A program made the translations under genes and the position numbers. From positions 1 through 29,300 of the IMG/VR virus record IMGVR_UViG_3300023503_000004: a DNA stretch of 29,300 nt; one strand, written 5' to 3'. The DNA comes from a virus. Shown here piece after piece: positions 2,866 to 28,076 of this stretch (positions within the stretch are counted from its first letter, which is position 1; each line of letters begins with the position of its first letter). The notes under the pieces are model-generated. The model was not told the DNA's origin and ran no database searches. It worked only from the letters and a program-made list of their open reading frames with translations.

Positions 2866-3572
2866 GGTCGAAACGAAATGGTGATGGTGTCCACTTCAAG
2901 CTCGCCTTTCGACTGGCTCACCCGTCCCTGAAAGCGCAGCAGCGACTTCTCGGCTGGGAATGGATTGACCAGCGTACCGACGTAGGTATGGGGCTTCTCC
3001 ATGTCGATCCCCTCCCAGGTGACGAGCACCGTCTTTTTGCCGGCCACGAGCCGGGCGTCGCCGTAGCCAGGACCGTCGAACTCTGCCTCGATGGTGACCT
3101 CGGTCGGCTCCCCGGTCTCGTCGGTGCCGGCGAACCAGAACTTGCGGCCGGTCTTCCAGCAGTGGGTCTCGAACTCCTGGTCGATTTCCACCACGATATC
3201 CTCGTGGGGCGGCGGACCACTGGCCGGGCAATCCCGCCAGCCGGCGTCGTAATCGGCGTCAGAGAGCTTGCACAGGCACTGCCCGGCCGCGCCGCCTGGC
3301 GGCAGCCCGGGCCCCCCGTCCTGGTCCTCGTGCACCGTCTCGATGGCGATGTGCCGCAGGCCGTCCGCCGGCGCGAGATCGCGCACACCGTCGTTGACCA
3401 CGAGCGTGCCATCGGACACCAGTGTTTCGATATGGCTGGCCGCCGCGATCTCGGCGCGGGAGAGGCCGAGTTCGCCCAGCAGGTCCACCGCCTCGCCAGG
3501 TGCGAGCACCACGCCCAGGTCCTCGAGGAGCACCGGTGAAGCGGTGGTGTTTCTGACGATGATCGCGGCCAT
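2862..3572 (-). CDS. Tail fibre-type protein sharing an N-terminal module with the 6439-5099 fibre
   Basis: A 236-residue protein starting one base after the previous stop. The first about 70 residues (IIVRNTTASPVLLEDLGVV...GTLVVNDGVRDLAPADGL) match in pattern the N-terminus of the 446-residue fibre upstream (IIIKNPDTLNPVTVDDLGWI...GTLIVNDGSADLSATDGV). This implies a shared attachment module. It is followed by LCKLSDADYDAGW, a linker motif common in phage fibre proteins, then a beta-rich C-terminal domain (about residues 120-236). I infer that it is a tail fibre or fibre cap. No catalytic motif is visible. Confidence 0.65.
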   Translation of the reverse strand: MAAIIVRNTTASPVLLEDLGVVLAPGEAVDLLGELGLSRAEIAAASHIETLVSDGTLVVNDGVRDLAPADGLRHIAIETVHEDQDGGPGLPPGGAAGQCLCKLSDADYDAGWRDCPASGPPPHEDIVVEIDQEFETHCWKTGRKFWFAGTDETGEPTEVTIEAEFDGPGYGDARLVAGKKTVLVTWEGIDMEKPHTYVGTLVNPFPAEKSLLRFQGRVSQSKGELEVDTITISFRP

Positions 3573-3573
3573 C

Positions 3574-4962
3574 TCAGGTCAGGATGTTGATTTTGACGGA
3601 CTGCGCCGTGCCGGCCCCGAGCTTCTTGACGATCGTCTTGTTTGGGGAAACCACCATGTGCCCATACGTGTCGGCCGGCATGAGTTGATAGGTGCCCTTC
3701 TCGGTGTAGCGCACGCGCACCTGGTCCAGGAGTGGGGTCACTGATGTGTCCGTTGAGGACAGCAGCCAGGCGAAGTCAAGGGTCGGATACGCCGATACGT
3801 CCAGGTTGGCGACCGCAGCCTGCAAGTCGGCGATCGTCGCCCACCCGGTCTTGTTCTTCGGCCCGCTATGCGGTACGAGCGCACCCCCCTGAGCCGTCAG
3901 CCATGACTGCCTGCCATCGAACGAAATGAGCGCTCCTATGGAGGTCCCTGTCGGCAGGTAGGCGTCGAACTCGATGGCCTCGATACGCTGCACGGCGTCA
4001 AGGTTGATCTGGCCGGCATCGTTAGTGGAGACGTAGAAAGAGCCGGCAGGGTACGCCGCATCGGTGTACACAGGCGGCTCCCATGGCTCGGCGGTGGGCA
4101 GTATGCCATCCACCTGAGATGTGTTCCATCGCGTAAGCATCCCCCCGCTATCCGTATTTTTCCCGCCAACGACAAGGTAGTACCCGAGTGTCGGATCAAA
4201 ACCTGGGGCCGTAACCTCCTGCCATGTGATCTGAAAGGTCCCTCCCCAGTTGACGCCTACGTACACCTTGCCTGCAACGAGATCGACGGCTATGGCGATC
4301 GCGTTGCCGAAATTGCTGGCATACGGATCGCGCTCATAAACTGGCAGTCCGGACACGTAAGCGCCGTCGACCCATCCCCAGCCGCCGCTGGACAGGCCGT
4401 AGAGCGGCATATCCATCGGGTCGCCCGATTGGCGCGCCGCCAGGATGCGCGCCATGGTGGTAATGCCGACGATAGGGTCGAACGCATCCGTTGAGGCGCG
4501 GCCAAAAGACCATTCGTGCCGTTTGCCGTTGGCAAGCGCGTGCACGCTCGGAACGGCGATGGCCGAGTAATACGCTGTCAGACTGTAATACTCGCCACTA
4601 GTGGACAAACTGGCCGATCCGGTCTTGACCTCCAGGTCGTGGTTGAGCTGGTTTATCGGGAACAGGTTGCCGGTTCCGGCCAGAGGCGTCAGTTGGATAC
4701 AGCCGTCGGCCACGTTCGCCCCGTTCGGGTCCTCGACGTTGAACCGCGCCGCGTCGGCCGCGTCGAAGTCGAGTTCCGAATTGATAAGTCCGGTCGGGCC
4801 TGGGACAAACTCGAGAATTTGCACGATCCTGGAGCCAAGCGGATCGTTGAAATGCTCGATGGTGATTTCCTGGTTTTGGGCGAAATTCTGGATCGTCTTC
4901 TGGACGATCCGCGCTCCGTGCAGGTCTGCGCCTGTCAGGTCAGCGTGCCTTGTAAAACCCAT
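3574..4962 (-). CDS. Tail fibre or adhesin-like structural protein
   Basis: A 462-residue protein with GAGGG about nine bases before the ATG at 4962. It opens with TRHADLTGADLHGARI, a short motif seen at the start or at domain junctions of phage fibres. The middle (about 145-270) alternates strands and glycines around ANGKRHEWSFGRA and KVYVGVNWGGTF, resembling a lectin- or SPRY-like beta sandwich. The C-terminal part contains QVRVRYTEKGTY and ends in a short strand-rich tail. Base composition over the central part is less GC-rich than the neighbouring tail genes, compatible with exchange of a receptor-binding module. Function is inferred from position and composition. Confidence 0.6.
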   Translation of the reverse strand: MGFTRHADLTGADLHGARIVQKTIQNFAQNQEITIEHFNDPLGSRIVQILEFVPGPTGLINSELDFDAADAARFNVEDPNGANVADGCIQLTPLAGTGNLFPINQLNHDLEVKTGSASLSTSGEYYSLTAYYSAIAVPSVHALANGKRHEWSFGRASTDAFDPIVGITTMARILAARQSGDPMDMPLYGLSSGGWGWVDGAYVSGLPVYERDPYASNFGNAIAIAVDLVAGKVYVGVNWGGTFQITWQEVTAPGFDPTLGYYLVVGGKNTDSGGMLTRWNTSQVDGILPTAEPWEPPVYTDAAYPAGSFYVSTNDAGQINLDAVQRIEAIEFDAYLPTGTSIGALISFDGRQSWLTAQGGALVPHSGPKNKTGWATIADLQAAVANLDVSAYPTLDFAWLLSSTDTSVTPLLDQVRVRYTEKGTYQLMPADTYGHMVVSPNKTIVKKLGAGTAQSVKINILT

Positions 4963-5099: not shown

Positions 5100-6439
5100 T
5101 AAAGGGACCCTCCGTTGTAGGCGGCCTGGAGCACCAGGACCGGGTCCTTGAGGCCGACGGCCCCGACGAAGGCAGACAGCCGCTCGCCGGCCGCCACGTC
5201 CACGTTCATGTTCGAGACCACGACCTGGGTGGAGCCGGCGGCCAGGTTCAGGGTGGCGACGGCCGCGCCGGAGCTCTTCCGAATCTCCACGGTCGCGTCG
5301 GCGGTCGGGGCCTGCTTGACGGAGAGCGTCGCGCCGACGAGGGTAGCGGCGTTGGGCAGGGCCACGGAATTACCGGGCGACGCAGCCAGCTCGCCGGAAA
5401 GCTTGAGATAGGTGTTGCGCGGCTTACCGTGCCGACCGAAGGTCAGGGTGGACCGGAAACCGAGCCACTTGCCCCGGTTTGTGTCCCGGCCGCAGACCAC
5501 GCCGTTGATGACGGCGAGATCGGAGACCACGCCGGCCTCCAGGGTGGCGACGCGGTTGTCCACGCCCTTGAGGGCGGCGTCCAGCTTGTTGTCCGCGTCG
5601 GCCAGGCTGGTGGCGCCGGAGATGTAGTTGGCGCCGCTGTTGGCCTGGTAGGAGCCGTCGGTGCCGAGACCGGCGCCGGCCTGGGTCGCGTCGAGTTCAG
5701 CCTGGAGATTGGCGGTGGCGGCCTCACCGGCGGTCTGTCCGAAGGTCAGCGGGTCAGTGCCAACCGTAAGCGTGGTGCTCACATCACCGAGCAGGGTGAA
5801 CGCGGCGCCGGCGTTGGCCGAGCCGCCGGAGACGTAGAACCGGGCGCCCGGGGTCACCTCGTTGGAAGGCGAGCCGTCGAAGTCGGTCCGCCTGGTGAGC
5901 ACCCAGGGATTCGAGGCATCACCCAGGGCGGTGACGGTGTAGGCGCCGTTCTGCTTGGCGTCGGCCTGGTCCTTGACCAGCACCGAATCGCCTACCGCGA
6001 GGGTCACGCCGTCGATGGCCGGCAGGGCGCCGTTGGCGGCCGCGGTCAGGGTCGCGCCCACGCCGCCGGTGCCGTTGTCGTACGTGCAGGCCGGCAGGGC
6101 TGCGGTGGTGGCCGCCTCGACCGGGGCCTTGGGCTTGAAGCCCGAGGCGATGGAGTCGGCGTAGGACTTGGCGTCGGCCACCTGGTCGTCCACGTACTTC
6201 TTGGATGCCCGCTTCAGCCAGGCCACGCCGTCGGTGGCCGATAAGTCGGCCGAGCCGTCGTTGACGATCAGCGTGCCGGCCGCAACCAGGGTCCGCAGAT
6301 CCTCGCTGCCGGCCAGCTCGCCGAAGTCGAATTGCTCGTGGGCGTTGACCGTCTCGCCCGCGCCGATGATCCACCCGAGATCATCGACGGTTACCGGGTT
6401 CAGGGTGTCAGGGTTCTTGATGATGATCTGCCATTCCAT
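5099..6439 (-). CDS. Tail fibre protein
   Basis: A 446-residue protein with GGAGGGGAATCATC before the ATG. It contains an N-terminal module (about 1-75) shared with the 3572-2862 protein, then a helical KKYVDDQVADAKSYADSI linker. Next comes a segment with the pattern VEAATTAALPA...DGVTLAVGDSVLVKDQ...NGAYTV...WVLTRRTDFD (about 100-190), which is typical of side-tail-fibre modules. A low-complexity helical linker and a beta-rich C-terminal domain follow (about 330-446). It acts at the tail tip, probably in host recognition. Its stop overlaps the tiny frameshifted ORF. Confidence 0.78.
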   Translation of the reverse strand: MEWQIIIKNPDTLNPVTVDDLGWIIGAGETVNAHEQFDFGELAGSEDLRTLVAAGTLIVNDGSADLSATDGVAWLKRASKKYVDDQVADAKSYADSIASGFKPKAPVEAATTAALPACTYDNGTGGVGATLTAAANGALPAIDGVTLAVGDSVLVKDQADAKQNGAYTVTALGDASNPWVLTRRTDFDGSPSNEVTPGARFYVSGGSANAGAAFTLLGDVSTTLTVGTDPLTFGQTAGEAATANLQAELDATQAGAGLGTDGSYQANSGANYISGATSLADADNKLDAALKGVDNRVATLEAGVVSDLAVINGVVCGRDTNRGKWLGFRSTLTFGRHGKPRNTYLKLSGELAASPGNSVALPNAATLVGATLSVKQAPTADATVEIRKSSGAAVATLNLAAGSTQVVVSNMNVDVAAGERLSAFVGAVGLKDPVLVLQAAYNGGSL

Positions 6440-23002: not shown

Positions 23003-24520
23003 CCGTAGCCCGGCGTCGCGGCGCGCCGCCTCCTCGCGCCGCCGCCTGGCGATGTTGGCGTCGAAGTCGCCGCCGGTGAGCCGGATCGTCTCGTCGGCCC
23101 TGGTGGAAAAATCGTTCTTGACCAGCCGCTCGGAGGCCAGCACCTCCTTCAGCGGATCGATCTGGCCCATGACCGGCCCGTTCCACCGCGCCCGGCTCCA
23201 GGCCATGCGGCGCGCCGGATCGTCGAGATACCCCGGCGCCCGCACCCGGCCGCGGATGACCGCCTCGCGCAGCCATTCCTCGTAGATCGGCTGGCAGAAC
23301 ATGGCCACCAGCCACTCGCGCCGCGTGAGATAGAACTTCCAGGCCATGAGCAACGCGGCCCTGGCCGCGGAATACGAGGAGTCGAATTTCTTCATCAGGA
23401 CCTCGGCCGGCTGCTCGATGGCGGCGCCGATCTGCTCGACGATGGCCTTGAAGAACGGCTCGAACAGCGCGTTCGGCCGCTTGGGATCGACGATGATCGC
23501 GTCCTCGCCGGGCGCGAGATCGACCATGTTGCCCGAGCCCAGGGCGGCCTCGTTGTCCGCCAGCGGCATGCCGGCCGGCGCGGCGCCGTCGGTCGCCGGG
23601 TCGAGCCCGGCAAGCTCCTCGCCGGTCTCGCTCTTGATGAGCACGGTGAAGAACGAGGTCACCACGGCGGCCATGAGCTCGGCCTCGGACAGCCGCGAGA
23701 GCTGCTTGAGCGCCGGCAGCACCCCGGCGAGATAGGGAAAGCCGCGTTTCTGGCCCACCCGCTCCGGGTAGAAGAGATGGACCACGTTCCGCCGGCCGCT
23801 GCGGCGGCCGCGCAGCGGCACCCGCCGCCACCGGCGCTCGACACCGAGACCGCCGGGGTGGCGCGTCATCACGTGGCAGGCGATGGGCACGCCGTCGCGC
23901 GAGACCTCGATGCCGGCGACCAGCCGCTCGTCGCCCAGCCGGTCGTCCGGCGTGCACACCTGGTGGCCCTCGACGAGCTGCACGGTGAGCGTGTACGGCG
24001 TGTCGAACAACGGCCGGCGGCGCAGGGGCAGCAGGCCGAACACGTCGCCGTTCATGAACGCCGAGAGCAGGGCGAGCCCCTGGAGCATGCCGAAGTCCAT
24101 GCCGTCGATGCCGGCGGTCCGGCACCAGAGCCGGAACTCGCGCTCGGTGTTGTCCTGCCAGGCGTCGGCCTCGTCGTCGGACAGCCCGAGATAGTCGCGG
24201 TCGATGCGCGACTGCATGACCAGTCCGGGACCGACGATGTTGGTGACCGCGGTGCGCAGCGCCGATCCGGCCACCGGCATGTTGCGGTAGGCGTCGCCGG
24301 AATAGTCGCGCAGGGCAGCCAGGTCGTGGCGCACATGCTCGTCAGCCGAGCCGGTGGACGCGAGCCAGCCGCGCATCACCCGTGACAGCGCGTCCGCGGC
24401 CCGGTAGCCCGCGGACGGGTTCGGCGCCGGCGCGGCCGTCGCGGCCACGGCGCCGCCGCCGGAGAGCCGGTCCGCAGCCCAGGAGGCCGCCCTGGCGACG
24501 TATGCGCGCAGTCTACCCAT
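22991..24520 (-). CDS. Portal protein (lambda B family)
   Basis: 509 residues. The start at 24520 overlaps the upstream gene's stop (TAG at 24513-24515) by eight bases. Family-typical pieces: AADALSRVMRGWLAS, DLAALRDYSGDAYRNMPVAGSALRTAVTNIVGPGLVMQSRID (about 60-105), TAGIDGMDFGMLQGLALLSAFMNGDVFGLLP, HLFYPERVGQKRGFPYLAGVLPALKQL, and KFDSSYSAARAALLMAWKFYLTRREWL near 370-400. It forms the dodecameric vertex ring through which DNA is packaged and ejected. Length fits lambda gpB (533). The last codons fall in a CATTGCTC-type repeat. Confidence 0.92.
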   Translation of the reverse strand: MGRLRAYVARAASWAADRLSGGGAVAATAAPAPNPSAGYRAADALSRVMRGWLASTGSADEHVRHDLAALRDYSGDAYRNMPVAGSALRTAVTNIVGPGLVMQSRIDRDYLGLSDDEADAWQDNTEREFRLWCRTAGIDGMDFGMLQGLALLSAFMNGDVFGLLPLRRRPLFDTPYTLTVQLVEGHQVCTPDDRLGDERLVAGIEVSRDGVPIACHVMTRHPGGLGVERRWRRVPLRGRRSGRRNVVHLFYPERVGQKRGFPYLAGVLPALKQLSRLSEAELMAAVVTSFFTVLIKSETGEELAGLDPATDGAAPAGMPLADNEAALGSGNMVDLAPGEDAIIVDPKRPNALFEPFFKAIVEQIGAAIEQPAEVLMKKFDSSYSAARAALLMAWKFYLTRREWLVAMFCQPIYEEWLREAVIRGRVRAPGYLDDPARRMAWSRARWNGPVMGQIDPLKEVLASERLVKNDFSTRADETIRLTGGDFDANIARRRREEAARRDAGLREEQ

Positions 24521-24737
24521 CGACCGGCACCACCAACCGCTGGCGGATGCCCCGCCCGCCGCGTGACAGGCGCAACACCTCGCGGTGCCAGTAATTGATC
24601 TTGCGGGTGATCTCGGCCGCGTCGGCCCTGGTCAGCCGCCGGCTGCCGATGGCGTACTCCTGGCCCGTGGCCACCGCCTTCTCGGCGGCAAGCCAGAGGT
24701 CCAGCATTTCCTGTGCGGTCGTGAGATCGAGAGCCAT
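24513..24737 (-). CDS. Small head-joining protein (gpW/DUF6148-like)
   Basis: 74 residues: MALDLTTAQEMLDLWLAAEKAVATGQEYAIGSRRLTRADAAEI... followed by INYWHREVLRLSRGG. The helix-hairpin-helix layout, size and place before the portal gene match gpW-like / DUF6148 head-completion proteins. No good ribosome site precedes the ATG at 24737, which is unusual here. Immediately upstream lies a small GCCCCA...TGGGGC hairpin and then the NYN cassette, so insertion may have displaced the original leader. Confidence 0.75.
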   Translation of the reverse strand: MALDLTTAQEMLDLWLAAEKAVATGQEYAIGSRRLTRADAAEITRKINYWHREVLRLSRGGRGIRQRLVVPVDG

Positions 24738-24779
24738 GCCCCAAGGGTATGGGGCCGGAAAGGGGAGGGGAAGAGGGTC

Positions 24780-24814
24780 ATATCCTGCGCAAGATATTTA
24801 CTTGCGCAAGATAT
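24780..24814. promoter_or_regulatory. Two operator-like palindromes with TGCGCAAGATAT repeat
   Basis: The 12-mer TGCGCAAGATAT occurs at 24786-24797 and 24803-24814, 17 bp apart. The first lies in an 18-bp near-perfect palindrome (ATATC, CTGCGCAA, GATAT); the second contains the perfect palindrome CTTGCGCAAG (24801-24810). Two symmetric half-site pairs spaced 17 bp apart look like binding sites of a dimeric repressor. The regulated promoter could be the plus-strand one at 24900 or one reading left into the gpW-like gene. Confidence 0.55.
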
Positions 24815-24899
24815 AAGTTATGAAGTGTCGGCATGGTTTATGCTTGGTGATGTCAGGGCGGCAGGGCGAGAGGCACAAACGGGGCCTCAACTTTTGGGC

Positions 24900-24928
24900 T
24901 TGACAACTGAAGATATCAGGATGATACT
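24900..24928 (+). promoter_or_regulatory. Sigma70-type promoter of the NYN cassette
   Basis: TTGACA at 24900-24905 is a perfect -35 hexamer, followed after exactly 17 bp by GATACT (24923-24928, four of six matches to TATAAT). Transcription would begin near 24935, about ten bases before the structured RNA and about 120 bases before the NYN start codon. It points against the late operon, so the cassette can be expressed in the lysogen. Confidence 0.65.
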
Positions 24929-24943
24929 AAAAGGGACAATAGC

Positions 24944-25054
24944 GCTCCTGTCGGCATCTCCCCATTGGCGGCCATAAAGGTCGTCGCGCAAGGCACGGCG
25001 GGGTTTTCCCCGCAACGCAAGGCATAGCGGGGTTATGTTGACAGGAGCTTTTTT
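24944..25054 (+). ncRNA. Structured leader or small RNA with two repeats and T6 tail, abutting the NYN start
   Basis: A long closing helix joins 24944-24963 to 25048-25029: nine pairs (GCTCCTGTC/GACAGGAGC), two G-U pairs, three pairs (CAT/ATG), a 2x2 loop, and CCCC/GGGG. Inside are two hairpins: GGCGGCC-ATAAA-GGTCGTC (24967-24985, seven pairs with two wobble) and GCGGGG-TTTT-CCCCGC (24998-25013, perfect). A 19-nt unit CGCAAGGCAyrGCGGGGTT occurs at 24987-25005 and 25016-25034 (17 of 19 identical). The closing 3' arm contains AGGAG, the ribosome site for the ATG at 25055, and is followed by TTTTTT. It could be an attenuator that hides the start, or a stable RNA ended by a terminator. All pairings were found by eye. 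Confidence 0.62.
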
Positions 25055-25765
25055 ATGTCTTGGAGAGGAAAAATGCGCACTGCTATCCTCATCGACGGTG
25101 GATTTTTTCTCAAGCGGTATCGAGTTGTATTCAGGAACGGATGGCGCCATGACCCTGCAACCAAAGCGGAAAACATGTACCGTATGGCGTGGCGTCATGT
25201 AGGATGGAAGAATGAGCAGGCAGAACTATACAGAATTTTCTATTATGACTGCCGTCCGTTTGCTCAGACGGCACATAATCCTGTGACGAACAGAGTCGTT
25301 GATTTCTCAAAAACACCAGTGGCAAAGGAGAGAATAGAATTCTTCGACTGCCTCAAAAAAAAGAGAAAGGTTGCCCTCCGCCTCGGATTTCTGAAGGATG
25401 ATAAGACATGGGTGATCAATCCGAGAAAGACCAGAAAACTGATTGCGAAGACCATTACCATCGATGATTTATCGGAGAACGATGTGAAGTACTCCCTGAA
25501 ACAAAAAGAGGTCGATATCAAGATAGGGCTCGATATCGCTTCACTCGCTCTCAACCGCATGGTTGGACGAATCGTCCTTGTCTCGGGGGACTCGGATTTC
25601 GTTCCGGCGGCAAAGATGGCCAGGCGGAATGGAATAGACTTCATTCTCGATCCAATGTGGAACCCGATCGATCCAAGTCTCCACGAACATATCGACGGCC
25701 TGCGATCAACCAGCGAGAACCCCGCTAAACCATTTCCCGACATGGAATATCCCTATCTCATCTAG
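25055..25765 (+). CDS. NYN-domain (PIN-like RNase fold) protein
   Basis: 236 residues if translated from 25055 (AGGAG seven bases upstream, inside the RNA helix), or 230 from an ATG at 25073 (GGAGAGG upstream and outside the helix). The usual first residues of the family, MRTAILIDGGFFLKRY, favour the second or both. Family signatures: D14 in LIDGGF, KEVDIKIGLDIASLAL with D154 and D160, and VLVSGDSDFVPAAKMARRNG with D179 and D181. This is the acidic cluster of NYN/LabA-type metal-dependent nucleases. Composition is visibly AT-richer than the phage genes and it runs against the operon, so it looks like acquired cargo. Its stop overlaps the zinc-ribbon gene stop tail to tail by eight bases. An RNase function is inference from the fold. 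Confidence 0.85.
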   Translation: MSWRGKMRTAILIDGGFFLKRYRVVFRNGWRHDPATKAENMYRMAWRHVGWKNEQAELYRIFYYDCRPFAQTAHNPVTNRVVDFSKTPVAKERIEFFDCLKKKRKVALRLGFLKDDKTWVINPRKTRKLIAKTITIDDLSENDVKYSLKQKEVDIKIGLDIASLALNRMVGRIVLVSGDSDFVPAAKMARRNGIDFILDPMWNPIDPSLHEHIDGLRSTSENPAKPFPDMEYPYLI

Positions 25766-26024
25766 CACTGGATAGCCACGCCTCCTCGCGGCCGCCGACA
25801 TTGTCCACCTCCACGCTCTTGATCGACACCTTGAGCCTGGCGAGCCGGCACTCCTGGTTCGCGCACCGGTGATAGCGCACCTTGATGTTGCCGTCCCACG
25901 GCAGGCTACCGGTCACCCGCGCCCGCGGCGTGCCGCATAGGGGACAAACCGCGCCATACCGCGGCGAGTAGTCCACGCCGGCCGCCGCCAGCTCGATCGC
26001 CCGTTCAAGCTCATCCGTCGTCAT
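25758..26024 (-). CDS. Small zinc-ribbon protein after the terminase
   Basis: 88 residues with AAGGAGGGGGAACG before the ATG. An N-terminal helix (TTDELERAIELAAAGVDY) is followed by CPLCGTPRARV and, about 25 residues later, CANQEC in RYHRCANQECRLARLKVSIKSV. Four cysteines suggest a zinc ribbon, similar in style to phage Ogr- or Com-like regulators and to small DNA-binding proteins encoded near terminases. The last residues lie in the overlap with the NYN gene end, so the C-terminus may have been altered by that insertion. Confidence 0.65.
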   Translation of the reverse strand: MTTDELERAIELAAAGVDYSPRYGAVCPLCGTPRARVTGSLPWDGNIKVRYHRCANQECRLARLKVSIKSVEVDNVGGREEAWLSSAR

Positions 26025-26048
26025 CGTTCCCCCTCCTTCTTCTCCGTC

Positions 26049-28076
26049 TCAGATCCGCACCCCGGCCGACCGCACCCGGCGGCGCGGACGGCCGGCCGCC
26101 ACCGGCCCGCCGTTTTCCGCCACCACGTTCGCCGGCCCCCGCAACAGATGGATGCCCCCACCAGGCCATTCCGGGTCAGCCAGGGCGTGAGCGATCACCT
26201 CGCAGTCCAGCAGATGGTTGTCCCGGCGGACCTGCACCCATTTTTCCCGGCCGTTCTTGTCTCGTCGCTTCTCCTCCGCCAGGATGTGCGCCACATAGTC
26301 GAGCCCCGTCTCCCGGTGCAGGAACGCCGCCATGTCGCCGCCAGTGGTTGCCGCAACCTCCAGCCGGTAGCGCAGGGCGTCCTTGAGCGCTTCGGTGTTG
26401 AGCGACACGATCTGCAGCCCGCCACGAATCGGCTTGCCGCTCGGCGCCTTGTCCAGCGGCTTGCCGAGAGACACCTTGCCGGCCAGCGGCCGGGACGCGC
26501 CCTTGGTCCCCCACACCCGGCAGCCGCGGCCACGCCCGTTGCGTCGCAACCAGAAATATGCCTCTTCTGTCATTGAGACCTTCCCGTCGCCACCGGTGCC
26601 GCCGGTGTCGAGCCCGGCTCGAAAAATCCGCATCCGCCGGCCGTCCGCCATCGGATACTCGGCGCCGAACAGCAGGTCCTCGAGATCTCCCCAGGTCTGC
26701 ACCTTGCCGTAGTGGATGAGCCACGACACATAGGTCCTTGCCCAGGCTCGGACCGCAAACCAGAACCCGTCACGCTGCATGTCCACGCCGCACGTGAGAG
26801 CGATGGCCTCCTCCGGCACCGTCTGCGGCGCCAGGTCGCACCGGGCCTCGAGCACCTGGTCCTCGGTGGTCTCGATGACCACCTCCTTCCACGGCTCGGC
26901 CTTGATCTGGGTCGCGAAATACTTTGACGCCTGCGGATCCCGCCTGCCGCGCAGGTAGGCGGCCGCGCATTCGGACAGCGACACGAGCGGCGAGATCCAG
27001 GCCGGCGAGTGGAAGGCGATCTGCTCCGGCGCTTCTTCGTCCAGGTAGCGCATGAGCGGCCGGCCGTCGTCCCTGGCGAACCACTCCCCGCCACGGACGG
27101 CCTTGTCGCGCGCCCGGTCGTCCCACAGCGATCCGCATTCCTGGCAGACATACCTCGCCATCTTGCCCTTGAGCACGGCCTTCGGGTCAACCCGCGCCTC
27201 CTCCGGCCCATCGGCCCCGTCGTCCAGGTAGGGCCACCTGATCTGGTCCCACTCCAGCCTTACATACCGGCCGCAAGCCGGGCAGGATGCGTGATAGTCG
27301 AACCTGACATCCGCGTTCTGGAACGCCTGCCGGACTGGCCCGGTTTCTATTGTCGGCGTCGAGATGATGAAAACCTTCGCCCGGAACTTGAACGACCGCA
27401 CCCGTTCGAGAACCAGATCCATGGTGGACGCTTCCTTGGCGTTCGGCGTGTCCGGGTATTTGTCCACCTCGTCGAGGAAGAGATAGCGTACCGAGACGTT
27501 GCCGATCGACGTGACGCTCCCAGCCCACCCCATGTAGATCAGCATGGTGGTGAGTTTGAGCCGCAGCCGCGCCATGTCGTCGTCCAGCCCGGTCAGCAGG
27601 TCCCGCAACCGTGGGCTCAACCGGAAGACGTCTTGGAGGTAGTCCTGGCTTCGTTTGGATGCCGTGTCGCGATCCGGGTACACGATGAGCGCCGGCCCTG
27701 GATCCTGGTCCGCGGCCCAGGCCAGGAAGGTCTCCATGCCGGCGGAAGAGCCAGTCTGCGGCGCCTTGCAGTTTGTGATGATCTTCACCGCCGGATGCGC
27801 CGCGGCGTCGAGGATGCCGCGCATGTGCGGCATGAAGTCGTGGTCCCATCTGGAACCCTTCAACGGCCCGTAGGTCACCACCCGGTGCTTCTCGGCCCAC
27901 TCGGCCGGCGACATTGTCTTCCGACACCGCATCACTCGCCGCTCTGGCGCGGACCAGTCGATCCGTATCAGCCGCGGCGAGCCGTTGAACGCGGCCGCGG
28001 CCACCTCTTCCGGCATCCACGGCGGCGGTTCCGCAACCGCGATTCTGGCTGGAATGACCATGCCAGGATCCGTCAT
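26049..28076 (-). CDS. terL: Terminase large subunit (GpA family)
   Basis: 675 residues; the start overlaps the small-subunit stop as ATGA. A Walker-A-like loop lies at about 103-111 (CKAPQTGSS), less standard than GxxxxGKT but usual for GpA proteins. Walker B is YLFLDEVD (198-205). A zinc ribbon is suggested by CPACG near 265 and CQECG near 315. The nuclease part has LTCGVDMQRDGFWF (about 420) and a later region SGKPIRGGLQIVSLNTEALKD. It drives ATP-dependent DNA packaging through the portal and cuts concatemers. Length close to lambda gpA (641). Confidence 0.92.
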   Translation of the reverse strand: MTDPGMVIPARIAVAEPPPWMPEEVAAAAFNGSPRLIRIDWSAPERRVMRCRKTMSPAEWAEKHRVVTYGPLKGSRWDHDFMPHMRGILDAAAHPAVKIITNCKAPQTGSSAGMETFLAWAADQDPGPALIVYPDRDTASKRSQDYLQDVFRLSPRLRDLLTGLDDDMARLRLKLTTMLIYMGWAGSVTSIGNVSVRYLFLDEVDKYPDTPNAKEASTMDLVLERVRSFKFRAKVFIISTPTIETGPVRQAFQNADVRFDYHASCPACGRYVRLEWDQIRWPYLDDGADGPEEARVDPKAVLKGKMARYVCQECGSLWDDRARDKAVRGGEWFARDDGRPLMRYLDEEAPEQIAFHSPAWISPLVSLSECAAAYLRGRRDPQASKYFATQIKAEPWKEVVIETTEDQVLEARCDLAPQTVPEEAIALTCGVDMQRDGFWFAVRAWARTYVSWLIHYGKVQTWGDLEDLLFGAEYPMADGRRMRIFRAGLDTGGTGGDGKVSMTEEAYFWLRRNGRGRGCRVWGTKGASRPLAGKVSLGKPLDKAPSGKPIRGGLQIVSLNTEALKDALRYRLEVAATTGGDMAAFLHRETGLDYVAHILAEEKRRDKNGREKWVQVRRDNHLLDCEVIAHALADPEWPGGGIHLLRGPANVVAENGGPVAAGRPRRRVRSAGVRI

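Follow-up and report, generated by a model that had tools for sequence, protein, structure and literature searches.

A structured RNA conserved before NYN-domain nuclease genes of phages, plasmids and bacteria very probably forms an RNA-controlled module with them

A short structured RNA and the NYN-domain gene directly behind it very probably constitute a single RNA-controlled, toxin-antitoxin-like module, judging from comparison of homologous loci. The same comparison places the pair on phages and plasmids and in bacteria from at least ten phyla. Its architecture is of a known kind, and its RNA and effector are of a new kind. We found the unit in a virus contig of 29,300 nucleotides (hereafter the window, meaning this whole stretch), where a promoter, an RNA of ~120 nt, an intrinsic terminator and the NYN gene lie on the + strand opposite the late genes (Table 1). 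The neighbours on the other strand encode DUF6148, a lambda-type portal, capsid E and terminase GpA, and GC content falls from ~0.70 in the surroundings to 0.47-0.51 in the unit, as a first-pass annotation had described when it placed an AT-richer unit opposite a late operon; its "prophage" label is unsupported, the record being a 29.3-kb virus contig. Because late genes flank it, the unit looks like inserted cargo (a moron). An Ogr/Delta-like zinc-finger ORF (25758-26024, - strand; 25.7 bits, just under the Pfam cut-off) sits before the terminase and meets the NYN gene tail to tail, overlapping its stop. Gene and RNA recur, identical, in a second contig (L002), and a search of phage records at the DNA level with the unit gave no match.

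Table 1. Features of the RNA/NYN unit in the window
Feature	Position	Strand	Basis
Sigma-70-like promoter TTGACA-17-GATACT	24900..24928	+	10/12 consensus letters; promoters enriched here in relatives
Structured leader RNA, divergent class member; T6 at 25049-25054	24935..25054	+	fold z -6.77; R2 match
P1 closing helix, 5' strand (GCTCCTGTCGGCAT), partner 25035-25048	24944..24957	+	MFE structure; P1 covaries in class
P2 5' strand CCCC, partner GGGG 25029-25032	24960..24963	+	MFE structure
19-nt repeat copy 1, in enlarged P2 loop; private to window phage	24987..25005	+	absent from relatives
19-nt repeat copy 2, takes in P2 3' strand	25016..25034	+	sequence comparison with copy 1
P1 closing helix, 3' strand (ATGTTGACAGGAGC); intrinsic terminator with T-run	25035..25048	+	MFE structure
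Shine-Dalgarno-like GGAGAGGA of NYN gene	25062..25069	+	sequence reading
NYN-domain ribonuclease gene	25073..25765 (longer frame from 25055)	+	PF01936, PHROG 5783, AlphaFold2, MARF1 NYN match, relatives' start

The DNA upstream of homologous NYN genes carries a common pattern: closing helix, CAGUAMGC, hairpin, GCCGAAC, closing helix and U-run, with one closing helix, one conserved internal loop and one hairpin in most members. Model R1, built from alignment A2 (63 sequences, aligned by sequence alone), matched the expected site before 141 of 171 NYN genes (E<=0.003; some of these loci are R1 seed sequences), and model R2, built from 72 members, added 16 of the remaining loci at the same place, all lying outside its seed (E<0.01 for 14, E<0.1 for two), the E-values of both models being rough because calibration was short. 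A matching RNA thus lies directly before 157/171 NYN relatives, with a median gap of 21 nt between the RNA end and the NYN match. About 8% of the relatives have no recognisable RNA, the Campylobacter plasmid type among them. The RNA is thus missing beside the NYN relatives of many Campylobacter plasmids; in L012 (pTet-type plasmids) one weak candidate lies at 1394-1459 (E 1).

All 13 base pairs of A2 change on both sides; double-change cells number 170, where shuffles have 33 +/- 10 and slid versions 29-44. Under a null that keeps tree and substitutions (60 replicates of a script that we wrote on the R-scape principle), the best nine of 1,770 column pairs were all structure pairs, seven of them at E<0.05. 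Two unpaired elements are near-invariant, the AU of the hairpin loop and the A before the P1 3' strand (71/71), and could form a binding surface. Just upstream of the RNA, sigma-70-like promoters are enriched (13 versus 0.3 expected, counting matches of at least 11/12), and in the Bacteroidota TAnnTTTG occupies this place at 20 of 23 loci versus 1.5 expected. The closing helix doubles as a terminator in nearly all members, with the gene directly after it. Given the promoters upstream of the RNA, RNA and NYN gene probably share one promoter, with the closing helix as the terminator between them. The RNA/NYN module proposed in the first-pass annotation therefore exists, because the RNA is conserved and covaries upstream of homologous NYN genes across phyla; the main outcome that it named as refuting, lack of such conservation, did not occur. 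The closing helix and U-run it described recur in relatives; its two inner hairpins and two repeats do not characterise the family. Short R1 matches of 31-35 nt in genomes were set aside as what appear to be plain terminators with the middle deleted. Of 42 pattern matches in viral contigs, most were chance occurrences lacking the closing helix. At gathering cut-offs, Rfam gave no match to the RNA in the window or in 12 relatives. As judged by these searches the class has no Rfam entry as such, TEG147 alone scoring to some relatives.

In the window, the promoter reported earlier is in place and is the sole sigma-70-like site within 24500-26100; because shuffles of this region average 1.1 such sites, the match alone says little. 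It is predicted to drive the RNA and, via read-through, the NYN gene. Between DUF6148 and this promoter (24781-24819), TGCGCAAGATAT occurs twice, 17 nt apart (24786-24797 and 24803-24814), around a palindromic CTTGCGCAAG core, and the paired copies resemble a pair of operator sites.

The compact RNA that the annotation had seen is likewise borne out: the segment 24932-25056 folds at -62.6 kcal/mol versus -40.6 +/- 3.3 for shuffles (z -6.77; 0/200 shuffles), and its closing helix of 14 bp runs directly into T6. R2 matched 24941-25056 (20.2 bits, E 0.0017) as the sole significant site in the 29.3 kb, R1 scored the copy weakly (15.3 bits, E 0.12), and the copy lies outside the seeds of both models. 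Because the R2 match falls at the exact expected place, we assign the RNA to the NYN-linked class; because its internal loop is paired and its P2 loop enlarged, we regard it as a divergent member. Where the class has CAGUAMGC / GCCGAAC, the window RNA carries UCGGCAU / AUGUUGA, letters that pair; of the internal loop it keeps only the GA that precedes the 3' strand of P1. ATAGC (25024-25028), a stretch of conserved type, stands directly before the GGGG of P2; Bacteroidota members, among others, also have AUAGC. Both 19-nt repeats are present as described, identical at 17 of 19 positions. We rejected them as the functional unit because they are not conserved, relatives having a single unit instead; they are a local enlargement private to the window phage, part of a set of extra hairpins that widens the P2 loop. 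Enlarged P2 loops also occur in other members, for example L019, L056, L077 and L152.

The earlier placement of an NYN gene directly behind the RNA holds (Pfam NYN PF01936, 37.2 bits versus a gathering cut-off of 24.2, E 5e-9; PHROG 5783, E 1e-86), and its start is what changes. Since relatives begin M-x-T-A-I-L-[IV]-D and GGAGAGGA precedes the ATG, 25073 is a more likely start than 25055 and gives a protein of 230 aa. Solved structures searched by sequence contained no clear relative, and Foldseek alone gave no convincing match; VIA-align on the Foldseek candidates surfaced NYN structures for the AlphaFold2 model (pLDDT 93.9). The best matches were 2qip and the MARF1 NYN domain (Z 16.6-16.8; MARF1 NYN Z 16.7), in a list from which ToxN is absent, an absence that carries no excluding weight. 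The protein is thus modelled with a MARF1-type NYN/PIN-like fold. It shares this fold with the MARF1 NYN domain and VPA0982 (PDB 5yaa, 6fdl, 2qip), whereas its length of ~230 aa, with insertions, exceeds their domain of ~150-160 aa. D14, D154, D160, D179 and D181 are invariant in 106/106 proteins and resemble an active site.

Phages of Escherichia, Proteus, Moraxella, Streptococcus, Lactococcus and Dorea carry NYN relatives, as do Campylobacter, Xanthomonas, Aeromonas and Thermus plasmids. Those in genomes belong, by record titles and with the proviso that MAG contigs can be misbinned, to Bacteroidota, Pseudomonadota, Verrucomicrobiota, Acidobacteriota, Planctomycetota, Spirochaetota, Bdellovibrionota, Lentisphaerota, Bacillota and Geobacteraceae. 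Loci lie in phage lysogeny regions and on plasmids; in phage ev099 the locus stands between the repressor and an N-like gene. In 24 NYN-bearing genomes, full-length RNA matches of at least 30 bits fall at the NYN locus, the exception being a second copy 6.7 kb off in one genome. The RNA precedes 5/5 full-length NYN genes among 297 genomes of one Bacillota order. In another class, where R1 was run over 274 genomes with stricter filters that lose weak matches, 4 of 10 NYN genomes had the RNA and no credible solitary RNA turned up. Distances between the RNAs are correlated with those between the proteins (Mantel r 0.40, 0/2,000 permutations), as for parts that are inherited together. In E. coli, RNA and NYN gene are both whole in 73 genomes; neither R1 nor R2 recognises the E. 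coli-type leader, in which closing helix and terminator are present. In the sampled matches of L009 1495-2349 to O157:H7 prophages the NYN gene ends after ~118 codons and the RNA region remains 99.6-100% identical, a pattern expected if the nuclease is costly, though not proof of it.

The RNA also occurs by itself. In the 297 genomes above, four carry it (47-69 bits) and lack an NYN gene, and solitary copies are found in six virus contigs (L177, L191, L201, L212, L236 and L242). These copies score up to 71 bits, the level of NYN-linked copies, and so do not look decayed. Four of them (L268, which lies between other-strand genes, L266, L242 and L191) have no co-directional gene behind and score as high as linked copies. 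The presence of high-scoring solitary RNAs in phages and genomes without NYN suggests that the RNA acts in trans; some could be leaders of other genes. In L283 the RNA stands directly before a Schlafen AlbA_2 gene (+13), and in L109 a second copy (3945-4005) lies between NYN and integrase, 19 nt upstream of the integrase start. L265, from a genome without NYN, carries two near-identical promoter-plus-RNA cassettes (3162-3222 and 5532-5593, reverse complement coordinates) before different genes in one island that also has SIR2-like, Abi_2 and integrase genes and group I introns. Behind the solitary copy of phage contig L177 (9216-9278) are a RelA/SpoT-domain gene (toxSAS-like) at ~+270 and a second small gene.

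At a relaxed threshold, Rfam TEG147 (RF03535) scores relatives of the window RNA at 33-55 bits (E down to 1e-8), and none of these reaches its gathering cut-off of 56.1 bits. In L171, the RNA upstream of NYN is almost identical to the TEG147 consensus, and both share the helix-loop-hairpin plan and its letters (GAGAGUAGGAACCCC...CGAAAUCAUGGGU); in contrast, TEG147 is so far known only in staphylococci, the window RNA does not match it at E<=10, and the relatives remain under the gathering cut-off. We regard TEG147 and the NYN-linked RNAs as one homologous class, below the curated cut-off. For S. aureus HG003, Teg147 is listed among the bona fide sRNAs with a length of 60 nt (PMC5826253), and its expression comes from a genomic island (PMC3053349). 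The literature searched states no function for Teg147 and no tie to NYN. The TEG147 consensus found nothing in phage and plasmid records, and RF03535 had no member above cut-off in 149 Bacillota genomes.

Among known RNA-antitoxin systems, AbiF/RCd22 shares the layout of promoter, short folded RNA, intrinsic terminator and RNase-type gene, also in prophages, and its RNA works both in cis and in trans (PMC12373285). It differs in having a HEPN effector and two 36-nt abiF motifs where our unit has an NYN effector and another RNA fold, and neither the window RNA nor the RNA sites of seven relatives were matched by RF03085 (abiF RNA) at E<=10. The type III systems ToxIN, CptIN and TenpIN have the same promoter-RNA-terminator-nuclease order on mobile elements, but the class has no conserved tandem repeats (two copies in the window only, single-unit relatives), and its effector has an NYN fold rather than a ToxN/AbiQ-type one, Pfam and PHROG giving NYN only. 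In AvcID a single non-repeated RNA antitoxin (AvcI) likewise adjoins an enzyme gene, but the effector (AvcD) is a deaminase and no terminator is predicted between RNA and gene (PMC10511110). We found no paper tying NYN to an RNA antitoxin in the open-access literature, and an earlier description elsewhere, for instance in subscription papers or on bioRxiv, is possible.

The reading we prefer, at a probability of roughly 0.6, is a mobile two-part module in which excess RNA binds and silences the NYN ribonuclease, as in type III systems, and loss of the RNA frees the nuclease. One promoter would yield a short folded RNA ending at its own closing helix, and occasional read-through would yield the mRNA of the PIN-like NYN ribonuclease; because that mRNA would arise only from read-through, the RNA would be in excess. 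Using its conserved internal loop and hairpin, the RNA would most likely bind the NYN protein and hold it inactive. Loss of the RNA, for instance when another phage halts host transcription, would release a nuclease that cuts RNA, resulting in superinfection exclusion or addiction. These steps, from RNA excess and complex formation to inhibition, release and cleavage, are modelled on AbiF/RCd22, ToxIN and AvcID, and toxicity and phage defence are presumed likewise. We favour inhibition, in the manner of type III systems, over guiding or processing. An antitoxin-like module is supported by the RNA before 157/171 NYN relatives and before all five NYN genes of the Bacillota order, by strong covariation above the phylogenetic null, by the promoter-RNA-terminator-gene order across phyla, by the invariant acidic residues and MARF1-type fold, by the location in lysogeny regions and plasmids and the layout shared with the proven AbiF/RCd22 system, by intact solitary RNAs and the expressed S. 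aureus sRNA, and by the O157:H7 gene that is shortened while its RNA is kept. Counting against it are the RNAs directly before other genes (L283, L109), which fit a cis-regulatory leader, the divergence of the window RNA with its paired internal loop, and the NYN relatives that lack a recognisable RNA.

Such leader-like copies raise the alternative, which we consider unlikely, that the RNA is solely a cis-acting attenuator: a sensor or protein-binding leader whose loop is bound by NYN or by a host or phage factor that sets read-through past the closing-helix terminator, the free RNA having no role of its own. The position of that terminator immediately ahead of the gene in nearly all members agrees with this, as do the copies upstream of other genes that have a ribosome site (L283, L109 and L265) and the "cis-reg" label that TEG147 bears in Rfam. 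Against an attenuator stand the four high-scoring solitary copies that no co-directional gene follows, and the detection of Teg147 as a discrete 60-nt sRNA (PMC5826253). It is improbable that the RNA serves the nuclease as cofactor, guide or processed substrate directed at foreign RNA: NYN proteins do process RNA elsewhere, for example the CRISPR-associated NYN ribonuclease (PMC11346440), and the P2 loop varies in length, but the class has no guide-like variable segment, the AU of its hairpin loop is near-invariant, and solitary RNAs exist without NYN.

For the window copy itself one might suppose that the leader has decayed or been rebuilt, is no longer functional as an RNA and does no more than end transcription before an inserted NYN gene, given its model scores of 15-20 bits, its paired internal loop and its private repeats. 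We think this very unlikely, since the fold is far stabler than shuffles (z -6.8), promoter, position, P1, P2, AUAGC and the GA preceding the 3' strand of P1 are kept, gene and RNA are identical in L002, and enlarged P2 loops are not peculiar to this copy.

If the inhibitory module is real, the few RNA-antitoxin systems would gain an RNA family and an effector fold that are both new and that range, on phages, plasmids and chromosomes, across ten phyla or more, and the S. aureus sRNA Teg147 would gain a testable partner. The solitary copies suggest counter-defence at the RNA level. More speculatively, RNA-controlled NYN defence may be phylum-wide, and the solitary RNA of phages and defence islands, probably including Teg147, may be a trans-acting antidote that guards its carrier against the NYN modules of rival elements.
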